Shown here: piece by piece, positions 6,437 to 27,583 of the stretch
Layout: each line of letters starts with the position of its first letter
Numbering within the stretch: position 1 is the first letter of the stretch
From: Polaribacter sp. SA4-12
GTDB lineage: Bacteria > Bacteroidota > Bacteroidia > Flavobacteriales > Flavobacteriaceae
Direction: 5' to 3'
Length of the DNA: 64,000 nt
Assembly: GCF_002163675.1 (NCBI RefSeq)
Contig: NZ_CP019334.1
Coordinates: 2,523,501 to 2,587,500, forward strand
Position numbers and translations under genes: made by a program
Notes under the pieces: model-generated
Seen by the model: the letters and a program-made list of their open reading frames with translations, nothing else
What the model was told of the DNA's origin: nothing
Database searches by the model: none

Positions 6437-6444
6437 CAAATGTA
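6437..6444 (-). promoter_or_regulatory. -7 box of the MATE gene
   Basis: Reads TACATTTG on the minus strand, an exact match to the Bacteroidota TAnnTTTG box, 12 bases upstream of the chosen ATG. A clear -33 element was not identified. Confidence 0.5.
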
Positions 6445-6453
6445 ACTAGATTT

Positions 6454-6534
6454 GCGTTAAGGATTGCAGTGAAAAGCCCACAGTGAGGAACGAACGAGGA
6501 CTTGAAACGAAAAGCCTGACCCTTGTGGTAACGC
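6454..6534 (+). ncRNA. Dispersed structured intergenic element, copy D (possible Flavo-1-like RNA)
   Basis: Outer arms GCGTTA and TAACGC pair. Inside them AGG pairs with CCT next to the conserved single-stranded words ATTG and AACGAAAAGC, and a small ACC/GGT hairpin sits in the 3' part. The framework matches the copy at 27503-27583, but the central arm here is different (rich in GAACGAACGAGGA). It fills the space between the divergent MATE and universal stress genes and abuts the promoter of the latter. The RNA interpretation and strand are inferred from stem covariation and purine-rich loops. Confidence 0.5.
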
Positions 6535-11074: not shown

Positions 11075-11115
11075 GAGATTGCCACATCAAACAAAAAAGT
11101 TTGATTCGCAATGAC
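11075..11115 (+). repeat. AGATT...AATGACA palindromic repeat, copy 3
   Basis: Begins GAGATTGC and ends GCAATGAC. A second, inner arm pairs ATCAAAC with GTTTGAT, giving a longer hairpin than in copy 2. Confidence 0.6.
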
Positions 11116-11134
11116 AGTAAATTAGCAAACAAGT

Positions 11135-11206
11135 CTAGCCCTGATTGAAGTGACATCCTTTTTGTTTTTCACAAAAAGATATAACGAAAAGCAGGAAATA
11201 GCTTCT
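11135..11206 (+). ncRNA. Dispersed structured intergenic element, copy A (possible Flavo-1-like RNA)
   Basis: CCTG at 11140-11143 pairs with CAGG at 11192-11195, AGC pairs with GCT outside it, and the central arm pairs TTTTTGT with ACAAAAA plus ATC/GAT across a bulged C. The conserved words GATTGAAGTG and AACGAAAAGC flank the central arm. It ends 5 bases from the desaturase stop. The 3' end (GGAAATAGCTTCT) is shared with copy B but not with copies C and D. Confidence 0.5.
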
Positions 11207-11211
11207 AAAAA

Positions 11212-12192
11212 CTACGCTGGAATCATCCATTTAAATTTAAAGTCTGTATCTGGAACTACAATTCTTTCTGTAATTCTGTACATTCTTGCTGGTAATTTCA
11301 TTAAATAATCTCTTGCCTTTTCTGCTTCTGGAGTAAGATTTGTAATTTTATCTATTTCCCACATTGTGTTTAGTTTCTGAATAATATCTACATAATCGAA
11401 ACCTGTATAAACACCAATTCTTTGTGCTACTGCTGAAAAATCATCGAATGCACTTCCTTTTGCTCCAAAAGATTCTCTTAAGTGTAATGCTGGCATTACA
11501 ATTTTATGTTTCATCATGTGTTGAAAAGCCAACATCATTTCACTTGGATCTATTTTAAAGATTTCTTTTACGAAATGAGAATATGCTTGATGGTGACGCA
11601 TTTCATCTCCTGCAATAATTTTAGACATTTTAGCTAATGCTTTGTGTCCTTTTTTACGTGCAATTTTAGCTACATTGTTATGAGAAACATACGTTGCTAG
11701 TTCTTGAAAACTTGTATATACAAAGTTTTTATATGGATCTGATGATGTACCAATATCGAAACCGTCTGCAATTAAATGTTGTGTAGAAATTTCTACTTCA
11801 CGCATATTTACACGACCTGATAGGTACAAGTATTTGTTTAAAACATCTCCATGTCTATTTTCTTCTGCAGTCCAGGTTCTAACCCAAGTTGCCCAACTAT
11901 TATCTGGTTGTTGAGAAACACCATCTAAATCTAATAACCAAGATTCATATGTTGGTAACGCTTCTTCTGTAATAGTATCTCCTACTAATACAACCCAAAA
12001 ATCGTCGTGTAATTCTTTAGATAACTCTCTAATTTCTTCTACTTCTGTAATAAAAGAATCTTTTTGAGAGTTCGGTAAAAAATCTGTTGGTTGCCAGATT
12101 TTTTCTGCAGGTATTAAATATTTATCTACAAAAGTTTGCATACTTTTTTCTAAAGTTAGCATTACTTCTTTTCTGACGTTGTGTATAGACAT
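11212..12192 (-). CDS. Acyl-ACP desaturase (plant stearoyl-ACP desaturase type)
   Basis: Soluble di-iron enzyme of 326 residues that introduces a double bond into an acyl chain carried on acyl carrier protein. The two iron-binding helices are visible: EENRHGD near residue 130 and DEMRHH near 216, each giving the E-x2-H ligand pair of the FA_desaturase_2 family. It is 4 bases upstream of nothing but itself 4 bases downstream of the plsC gene, so acyl chain desaturation and phosphatidic acid synthesis appear co-transcribed, giving a small membrane lipid operon with the membrane protein gene at 12928-13350. Confidence 0.92.
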   Translation of the reverse strand: MSIHNVRKEVMLTLEKSMQTFVDKYLIPAEKIWQPTDFLPNSQKDSFITEVEEIRELSKELHDDFWVVLVGDTITEEALPTYESWLLDLDGVSQQPDNSWATWVRTWTAEENRHGDVLNKYLYLSGRVNMREVEISTQHLIADGFDIGTSSDPYKNFVYTSFQELATYVSHNNVAKIARKKGHKALAKMSKIIAGDEMRHHQAYSHFVKEIFKIDPSEMMLAFQHMMKHKIVMPALHLRESFGAKGSAFDDFSAVAQRIGVYTGFDYVDIIQKLNTMWEIDKITNLTPEAEKARDYLMKLPARMYRITERIVVPDTDFKFKWMIPA

Positions 12193-24351: not shown

Positions 24352-24401
24352 CTTTTGATGATTTTAGTATTTTGTAATTGCTATTTGTTTGCAAATATGT
24401 T

Positions 24402-24496
24402 TAGCCCAGATTGAAGTCGTTCGAATAACTGTTGATATTCTTAACCTTTTTTATTTTTCTTAAAAAAGATACAACGGAAAGCTGGAAATAGCTTCT
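24402..24496 (+). ncRNA. Dispersed structured intergenic element, copy B (possible Flavo-1-like RNA)
   Basis: CCAG pairs with CTGG where copy A has CCTG/CAGG, a compensatory swap. The words GATTGAAGT and ACAACGGAAAGC are kept and the central arm pairs TTTTTTA with TAAAAAA. A stretch of about 22 extra bases after GAAGT forms its own GAATA/TATTC mini-hairpin. It lies between the hmgA and hppD genes, which are on the minus strand. Confidence 0.5.
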
Positions 24497-24518: not shown

Positions 24519-24553
24519 ACCACATAGCAACATAGAAAACATAGTTTTTAAGT
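24519..24553 (+). repeat. ACCACATAG dispersed repeat, copy 2
   Basis: About 35 bases beginning ACCACATAGCAACATAG, matching the copy at 10978-11012 with a few changes. Confidence 0.5.
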
Positions 24554-24565
24554 ATGTTACTCGCT

Positions 24566-24582
24566 CCTTCCCTTTGGGAAGG
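24566..24582. repeat. Short perfect hairpin CCTTCCC/GGGAAGG
   Basis: A 7-bp perfect stem with a TTT loop, 12 bases beyond the homogentisate dioxygenase stop. It has no T-tract on the minus strand, so a terminator role is doubtful; it looks like an intergenic repeat fragment. Confidence 0.4.
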
Positions 24583-24594
24583 TTGGGATGGACT

Positions 24595-25752
24595 TTACTC
24601 CAACCAAGATTTATAATACGCTTCATCGGCAATTTTCATAGCTTCTTCTGTAACTTGTAAAGGCTTAAAAGTATCTACCATAACTGCTAATTCTTCGGTT
24701 TTTGTTTTGCCAATACTTTTTTCTGCTGTTCCTGGATGTGGACCATGAGGAATTCCTGCTGGATGCAAAGAAATATGACCTTGATCGATATCGTTTCTGC
24801 TCATAAAATCGCCAGCTACATAATATAAAACCTCGTCTGAATCGATGTTACTGTGGTTGTATGGCGCTGGAATTGCGTTTGGATGATAGTCGTACAAACG
24901 CGGCACAAAACTGCAAATTACAAACGTATTTGTTTCAAAAGTTTGATGCACTGGTGGCGGCTGATGAATTCGCCCAGTAATTGGCTCAAAATCGTGTATT
25001 GAAAATGCATAAGGAAAATTATAACCATCGTAACCAACAACATCAAAAGGATGTGAAGCGTAAATCATTTCTATAATTTCGCCTTGTTTTTTTACTTTGA
25101 TTAAGAAATCTCCTAATTCATTATGTGTTTCTAGTTCTTCTGGTCTTCGTAAATCTCGTTCGCAAAATGGTGAATGTTCTAATAATTGACCAAAATAGTT
25201 TCTGTATCTTTTTGGAGTATACACTGGCGAATAGGATTCTACGATAAAAAGTCTGTTGTTTTCATCATCGAAGTCTAGTTTGTAAATAATTCCACGAGGA
25301 ATTACTAAATAATCTCCGTATTTAAAGTTGATATTCCCTAGATGCGTTCTTAATTTTCCGGTTCCTTTATGAATAAAAATAACTTCATCTGCATCTGTAT
25401 TTTTATAAAAATAATCTGTGGTAGATTTTTTTGGTGCTGATAAAATAATATTACAATCAGAATTTGTTAAAACGATTTTTCTACTTTCTAAATAATCGTT
25501 TTCTGGCGGAACTTGAAATCCTCTAAACCTGTATGATTGAATGTTATTTGCTTTCGCTATTTTTGGTTTCACAGAATATTGTTTTCCAATATGTTTTACC
25601 ATTGTTGGTCTGTGTTCGTGATACGAATTGGTAGACATTCCGTCGAAACCAATTGTACCAAAAAGTTGTTCGTAATATAAACTCCCGTCTTTTTTACGAA
25701 ACTGCGTGTGTCTTTTAGGTGGAATTTTTCCTAATTTATGATAAAAAGGCAT
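24595..25752 (-). CDS. hmgA: Homogentisate 1,2-dioxygenase
   Basis: Ring-cleaving iron dioxygenase of 385 residues that converts homogentisate into maleylacetoacetate, downstream of HPPD in tyrosine and phenylalanine breakdown. Cupin-type segments are seen: DADEVIFIHKGTGKLRTHLG near 125, DYLVIPRGIIYKLDFD near 150, and the metal-site region HQTFETNTFVICSF with later HPAGIPHGPHPG near 335-345. It is shorter than the about 430 residues of the animal enzyme, as in other Bacteroidota homologues. A possible -7 box (TATATTTG on the minus strand) lies at 25891-25898. Maleylacetoacetate isomerase and fumarylacetoacetase genes are not in the window. Confidence 0.93.
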   Translation of the reverse strand: MPFYHKLGKIPPKRHTQFRKKDGSLYYEQLFGTIGFDGMSTNSYHEHRPTMVKHIGKQYSVKPKIAKANNIQSYRFRGFQVPPENDYLESRKIVLTNSDCNIILSAPKKSTTDYFYKNTDADEVIFIHKGTGKLRTHLGNINFKYGDYLVIPRGIIYKLDFDDENNRLFIVESYSPVYTPKRYRNYFGQLLEHSPFCERDLRRPEELETHNELGDFLIKVKKQGEIIEMIYASHPFDVVGYDGYNFPYAFSIHDFEPITGRIHQPPPVHQTFETNTFVICSFVPRLYDYHPNAIPAPYNHSNIDSDEVLYYVAGDFMSRNDIDQGHISLHPAGIPHGPHPGTAEKSIGKTKTEELAVMVDTFKPLQVTEEAMKIADEAYYKSWLE

Positions 25753-27484: not shown

Positions 27485-27502
27485 TTATGTATGTTAATGA
27501 GC

Positions 27503-27583
27503 GCGTTAGGGATTGAAGTGGTATCCTTTTTTGTTTTTCTCAAAAAAGATACAACGAAAAGCCCGACCTTTTTAGGGAACGCC
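27503..27583 (+). ncRNA. Dispersed structured intergenic element, copy C (possible Flavo-1-like RNA)
   Basis: Outer helix GCGTT/AACGC, inner helix GGG/CCC beside GATTGAAGTG and AACGAAAAGC, a central arm TATC-C-TTTTTTG paired with CAAAAAA-GATA with a bulged C, and a small CCT/AGG hairpin in the 3' part. This is the most complete copy and gives the reference fold, a multi-branch structure. Strand and RNA nature are inferred. Confidence 0.55.

Follow-up and report, generated by a model that had tools for sequence, protein, structure and literature searches.

The four dispersed intergenic elements in the window (the whole stretch of 64,000 nt of the Polaribacter sp. SA4-12 genome that was analysed) are confirmed copies of Flavo-1 (Rfam family RF01705) with one covarying fold. 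Comparison of these copies with those elsewhere in the genome and in related species revealed several characteristic features of the family: (i) the number of copies varies between genomes, (ii) elements are present, absent or inverted at orthologous sites, (iii) their junctions with neighbouring genes can be exact, (iv) the inner arm changes at fixed sites, and (v) base pairing is strand-specific. The best reading of these features is that Flavo-1 is a mobile modular structured element, either RNA or single-stranded DNA, rather than a conventional sRNA gene. It is probably a non-autonomous element of the REP/MITE-like kind, with modular arms and with a fold that is required on the strand annotated in Rfam. 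The sequence-only reading had listed a terminator, an sRNA and a mobile REP-like element as possible functions; the comparative data favour the last of these, with structure selected on the Rfam strand.

A Flavo-1 copy is present at each of the four sites proposed earlier (6454-6534, 11135-11206, 24402-24496 and 27503-27583), always on the + strand. The identity with Flavo-1, which had been suspected but could not be confirmed from the letters, holds for the family covariance model: two of the four copies score above its curated cut-off of 42 bits, and the two others score below it. The copies and one adjoining tail are as follows.

6454..6534, + strand: Flavo-1 copy of frame II; its outer helix is GCGTTA/TAACGC and its inner arm is divergent, as described from the sequence (RF01705 match at 6444-6525, 32.1 bits, under the cut-off).
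11125..11203, + strand: Flavo-1 copy of frame I (TAGCCC/GGAAATAGCT) with a CATCC/GATA arm (RF01705 match at 11133-11202, 72.8 bits).
11204..11211, + strand: A/T-rich 3' tail TCTAAAAA from the outer frame to the stop codon of the neighbouring gene, an A-rich 3' end as in frame I.
24393..24493, + strand: Flavo-1 copy of frame I with an unusual, longer arm (RF01705 match at 24399-24492, 32.5 bits, under the cut-off).
27503..27582, + strand: Flavo-1 copy of frame II; its arm is CATCC-like/GATA, and a small second hairpin precedes AACGC (RF01705 match at 27496-27572, 57.3 bits, over the cut-off).

A new covariance model, R1, was built from 62 copies that include the 11135 and 27503 copies and exclude the 24402 and 6454 copies. 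This model recovers all four window copies with E <= 1.1e-7, the next match having an E value of 0.045, and the two copies outside its training set score 40.1 bits (24402) and 39.6 bits (6454). The two neighbouring pairs on which the idea of a conserved fold had been based were quoted correctly: the pair beside GATTG is G-C in the 6454 and 27503 copies, T-A in the 11135 copy and A-T in the 24402 copy, and the following pair is A-T (6454), G-C (27503) and C-G (11135 and 24402).

From the outside inwards, the element consists of an outer frame, a variable short helix, the internal loop GATTG/AAAGC, the two covarying pairs and an arm. The division into two outer-helix subtypes, seen first in the four window copies, is real, since among 150 copies 91 have TAGCC/GGAAATAGCT (frame I), 58 have GCGTT/AACGC (frame II) and one is unassigned. 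The A-rich 3' end is common to the 91 frame I copies. In frame II, a small extra hairpin is often present before AACGC, and in some copies the two sides of the outer helix vary in step, as in GCGTG/CACGC (L061), GCATT/AATGC (L120) and GCGCT/AGCGC (L115); here and below, L-numbers denote loci and G-numbers denote genomes, G000 being the own genome. Judged by eye, the arms are of the kinds CATCC/GATA, AAATCC/GATTG and GAGCTC/GCGAG, together with rarer ones.

The loops of Flavo-1 host other dispersed repeats. The repeats CAGTTCGAGTGAATTT...GTATCGAGAAC and TATGCTGAACTCG...TTCAG lie within apical loops (L413, L227, L232, L176 and L026, L412, L414, L415) and occur with both main kinds of arm. Immediately upstream of the 11135 copy, window positions 11075-11116 hold a different repeat, GAGATTGCCACA...TTCGCAATGACA and its variants, which recurs inside the apical loops of L019, L020, L029, L043, L044 and L411. 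In L046, L047, L408, L409 and L410, the GATT/TGAA internal loop contains a module of about 44 nt that includes a small hairpin, AATGC-NNN-GCATT, and in L405 the palindrome CCTGCCTGCCGCAGGCAAG is inserted in the 3' spacer of the frame. Finally, the interval from the 24402 copy to the stop codon at 24595 contains, at window positions 24519-24570, a stretch of the type ACCACATAGCAACATAGAAAACATAG; this stretch is common to some orthologous loci (L071, L072 and L073), and L069 lacks it.

The claim that compensatory change points to a selected fold was borne out, and the covariation holds both in the own genome and in relatives. Across 62 distinct copies, 94.5% of the cells at the named pairs hold a standard pair compared with 80.0% (sd 0.7) after shuffling, cells changed on both sides number 154 compared with 53.5, and the covariation score is 0.418 compared with 0.137; structures slid out of register pair in only 42-58% of cells. 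RNAalifold, applied to the same 62-row alignment, gave nearly identical helices. Two other counts on these copies were unremarkable: 7 of 15 pairs have a change on both sides (5.7 in shuffles, 55 of 500 shuffles being as high), and 16 further pair types occur (15.3 in shuffles, 226 of 500 as high). The folding energies of the four window copies are unremarkable as well, with z-scores of -0.28, -0.93, -0.31 and -1.78 on the Rfam strand and a lower z-score for the reverse strand in three of the four. Thus, the evidence for structure is the covariation and not the energy of single copies.

The same pairs indicate which strand folds. In the five core pairs of the 150 copies, there are 19 G.U cells versus a single A.C cell (p 4e-5 under independence of the cells, an assumption that does not hold). 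Two of the copies, L046 and L047, contain an additional insert and are parsed wrongly in this test; without L046, the counts are 18 and 0. The excess of G.U over A.C identifies the Rfam strand as the folded one. Folding energies agree weakly with RNA parameters (78 versus 54 in favour of the Rfam strand, p 0.03; 45 versus 28, p 0.06, for non-redundant copies) and strongly with DNA parameters (115 versus 17; 63 versus 11 for non-redundant copies), so that RNA and single-stranded DNA are not told apart.

The own genome (3.99 Mb, one contig) contains at least 69 matches at E <= 0.001 among the best 150 of 1166 candidates, a list from which the 6454 copy is absent. Fifty-two of these matches are over the RF01705 cut-off and 17 are under it, many of the latter with GAGCTC arms. 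A search with exact frame I words found a further 11 whole copies and one 3' half, which were left out of the statistics and bring the total to at least 81 copies. Flavo-1 matches were found in 22 of the 39 genomes searched, the own genome included. Within the genus, the range is from none to at least 91 per genome, the high counts being lower bounds from the best 91 candidates scored in each. Five of the 24 same-genus genomes (own included) have no match, and two of these are 99% complete and larger than 4 Mb; no Flavo-1 match was found in the near-complete genomes G002 and G003. At least 120 stretches match Flavo-1. The 80 listed come from Polaribacter, Chryseobacterium, Flavobacterium, Tenacibaculum and further Flavobacteriales, apart from a few whose label is only Bacteroidetes and one labelled as a Nitrotoga MAG, which is probably a mis-binned contig; the best identities to own loci in this set, 84-87%, come from Polaribacter contigs. 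Phages and plasmids gave no match to the 11135 copy, and viral contigs gave no exact match to one arm pattern.

Orthologous sites reveal the turnover of whole elements. They were assigned to 25 groups, at least one of which (a group of 8) merges different sites. At the L063 site, 29 loci of relatives were compared. In 8 of them, the element separates a gene's stop codon from the start codon of the following gene. In 5 of the 29, this stop and start abut, with 0 nt between them in L233, L234, L237 and L243 and -1 in L235, and some of the remaining loci hold different inserts at the same junction. At the L056 site, two of 29 loci are clean, the two genes overlapping in TTAA (L159 and L161), and in G000 and L157 the element lies between two full stop codons, both of them kept. 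Seven of these 29 loci have an element, either at this place or after the same left gene where the right neighbour is a different one, and one has a remnant. At the L029 site, among 29 relatives, the element is in the forward orientation in three, inverted and attached to the other gene in two and reduced to a 3' remnant in one; in the other 23 no element was found in the 220 nt before the right gene that were compared. At the L057 site, 6 of 29 loci have the element, and none of the 29 gave a clean junction. A possible, unconvincing target duplication of the MITE type, TTAA on both sides, was seen at L056 only, and none at L063.

This turnover represents movement or precise loss. A tree was made for the neighbour of L063 from 19 of the 30 loci, with 18 rows used and one too short. 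On it, the three states of the site require 6 changes compared with 7.3 after shuffling, with 28 of 200 shuffles as low. This tree gives no direction of change, so the clean sites could be precise losses; we favour the interpretation that the filled sites would be gains. As for the other inserts at the L063 junction, those in L236, L240 and L253 have a small GIY-YIG-like ORF (by eye; 106 aa in L236), and L252 has a Y1-transposase gene (profile match).

The positions of the copies relative to genes were determined with a home-made ORF caller for 150 copies, 70 of the own genome and 80 chosen from the highest-ranked matches in relatives. Copies prefer an antisense placement directly behind a stop codon. 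The gene on the 3' (right) side of the element is antisense in 54 of the 70 own copies (p 6e-6); by frame, this applies to 34 of 40 own copies of frame I (p 8e-6) and 19 of 29 of frame II (p 0.14), and to 38 of 58 frame II copies overall (p 0.025). On the 5' (left) side, no orientation bias was found (39 of 70 own copies). The distance from the outer frame to the stop codon of the 3' neighbour is exactly 10 nt in 24 of the 60 cases with 0-34 nt (13 of 35 own), and 49 of the 60 (28 of 35 own) are in one reading phase, 1 mod 3. The 60 near cases count orthologues separately, the 35 own sites are mutually non-orthologous, and two negative values (L088 and L149) were judged to be artefacts of ORF calling. 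At 35-120 nt there is no such phase (18 of 45). In many of the cases at longer distances, a terminator-like hairpin of the neighbour lies in between, with its T-tract abutting the element (by eye). In the window, the 11135 copy is antisense to the fatty acid desaturase gene at 11212-12192 (-), 8 nt from its stop codon.

The in-phase spacing of 10 nt would be explained by junctions of 0 nt between genes, into which the element would insert exactly and at which later changes of the stop codon would remain in frame. We also considered, and rejected, insertions into the ends of coding sequences whose stop codon would then come from the element: the expected distance of 0, with TGA at the end of the element, does not occur among the distances of up to 34 nt.

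The same placement would be expected of a selected cis-acting 3'-end element, in which Flavo-1 either ends opposing transcription as an antisense RNA or roadblock or serves as a 3' element of the adjoining gene. The spacing of 10 nt is close to the reach of the ribosome beyond the stop codon. E. coli REPs less than 16 nt from the stop codon are reported, in the accessible part of the source, to downregulate translation (PMC12306157). The covariation is strand-specific, as a cis function would have it, and several sites are kept in many species despite diverged intergenic DNA, a persistence that selection on such a function would also give. However, many same-genus species have no Flavo-1 at the same junctions, the folded strand is the antisense and not the mRNA strand, and the in-phase 10 nt would likewise arise if no insertions survived other than those exactly at tight junctions. 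Moreover, the genes around the window copies are unrelated and have no function in common (MatE transporter, universal stress protein, carbon-nitrogen hydrolase, fatty acid desaturase, glyoxalase/HPPD-like, homogentisate dioxygenase-like, pyridine nucleotide oxidoreductase and NifU). A terminator or 3'-UTR element of the antisense neighbour was rejected, since inspection of both strands by eye gave no consistent U-tract after the hairpin, and the strand test favours the other strand. In the accessible text of an RNA-seq study of Flavobacterium psychrophilum, several 5' regions coincide with Flavo-1 hits, the hits are sense or antisense with many outside transcribed regions, and no clue to the function of Flavo-1 is given. 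On balance, we consider a cis-acting role unlikely.

If Flavo-1 is mobile, as we prefer to read it, an enzyme acting in trans would be required, and the obvious candidates were searched for. Like REPs, Flavo-1 is extragenic, has tens of copies and depends on a folded strand, which would fit a REP moved by a RAYT or an IS200/IS605-type Y1 transposase since lost from the own genome. RAYTs of the Bacteroidetes subclass 2.6 are described, in the accessible part of the source, as having 'atypical secondary structures' at their flanks, of which further copies lie elsewhere in the genome (PMC6006769). The distribution of Y1 genes argues against this origin. No Y1_Tnp match was found in G000, G001, G004, G008 or G021; of these, G000, G001 and G021 have 57-62 Flavo-1 matches each in the same-genus scan, whereas G006 has 8 Y1_Tnp matches but just 5 of Flavo-1. 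Thirty-four of the 44 listed Y1 matches were checked together with their flanks, and a single stretch (L433) has Flavo-1 over the cut-off; model R1 found no additional Flavo-1 in these 34. One copy of G018 (L118) is adjacent to a RAYT, a coincidence in our judgement, since the sister-species site L125 has Flavo-1 without such an ORF. Thus, with no Y1_Tnp match in three high-copy genomes and Y1 genes mostly not near Flavo-1, membership of the REP/RAYT class is not supported.

The element strand is on the strand of negative GC skew in 46 of 69 cases (p 0.002; partition chosen on skew alone). IS200-type elements have a bias for the lagging-strand template, and the bias of Flavo-1 is unlike it. 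A replication-strand mechanism for Flavo-1 itself was dropped, because the gene-orientation bias can produce the skew bias, whose direction is, moreover, away from the lagging-strand template. We regard an origin by RAYT or Y1 transposase as improbable.

A SINE-like retroelement, whose A-rich 3' tail would allow Flavo-1 RNA to be reverse-transcribed at T-tracts behind stop codons and terminators, would account for the A-rich 3' ends of frame I copies and for junctions at T-rich stretches of the neighbour's strand. However, no RVT_1 match was found in G000 or G021 (elsewhere, there is one in G001, two in G008 and three in G018), the Flavo-1 transcript is putative, and A/T-rich junctions are common in a genome of such composition; this origin appears very improbable. 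Two other candidates were rejected. An autonomous copy with a gene inside frame I is not found among 46 exact 5' and 47 exact 3' words in the own genome, where all word pairs lie within about 145 nt with no long insert between the halves. The likeness to integron attC sites (GTTA/TAAC boxes) fails on the reversed order of the boxes.

Change of the arm at fixed sites is a second level of variation. In orthologous copies, the frame and the flanks are constant and the arm type differs. At the 24402 site, the element is present in five relatives, absent in one and not comparable in one, and at the 27503 site it is present in four and not comparable in three; both sites have arms of both main kinds, and the 27503 orthologues in L069 and L071 have GAGCTC arms. 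The arm type also differs between L052, L059, L045, L058 and L060 and their respective orthologues. At the L063 site, even the sister species G048 and G051 (support 100/99) have different arms, and G051 has further inserts in the junction. Gene conversion among the dozens of copies would be the simplest mechanism for these changes.

The mobile element that we favour would thus be a non-autonomous unit of about 100-150 bp (in short-looped copies). Whole elements would arrive at gene junctions, mostly antisense behind a stop codon or behind the T-tract of the neighbour's terminator, and then persist. Resident copies would swap the inner arm by recombination with other copies, and an enzyme acting in trans would move the element by recognising its folded strand. 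A more specific version is possible, and we offer it only tentatively: a two-tier selfish element, in which whole units enter stop-codon junctions in the antisense orientation, arm cassettes spread among the residents, and a single strand, RNA or DNA, is recognised by a system outside the REP/RAYT, IS200/IS605 and group II classes.

If Flavo-1 is mobile, the annotation of Flavobacteriales genomes should not treat its Rfam hits as sRNA genes, the covariation would stem from recognition by a mobilising factor, and the exchange of arms at fixed sites would provide a clear system for the concerted evolution of structured repeats. This reading also makes the function of Flavo-1 testable via transposition, strand specificity and the effect on the adjoining gene. 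The family itself is already known: in the accessible part of the 2010 discovery paper, it has one table row, in which RNA is marked 'probably', and a review, likewise accessible in part, names it. Among the papers listed by a search of the open-access literature, outside which most subscription papers lie, none was seen to describe Flavo-1 as mobile or arm-swapping. The new observations are the turnover from species to species, the antisense placement at stop codons, the change of arms at fixed sites and the lack of Y1-transposase and RVT_1 matches in the own genome and in the relative G021.

Comparison with known systems places Flavo-1 as follows. The window copies have the same conserved words and helices as the Rfam family, which is classed there as an sRNA gene, whereas the copies described here behave as mobile; copies with the inserts of about 44 nt or with longer arms are missed by the RF01705 search. 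With REPs and REPINs that have RAYTs, Flavo-1 shares a dispersed, extragenic and folded nature, strand identity and a frequent position close behind stop codons, and it differs in its longer, multi-helix fold with modular arms and in the absence from the own genome of a cognate RAYT gene flanked by Flavo-1. Like MITEs, it is short, non-coding and present or absent at orthologous sites; unlike them, it showed no terminal inverted repeats beyond its outer helix and no consistent target duplication, and its structure covaries. The STAXI motif, from the same 2010 paper, is similar in that it covaries and in that the authors weighed single-stranded DNA against RNA, and it differs, by the description in the accessible part of that paper, in fold, taxa and gene context.
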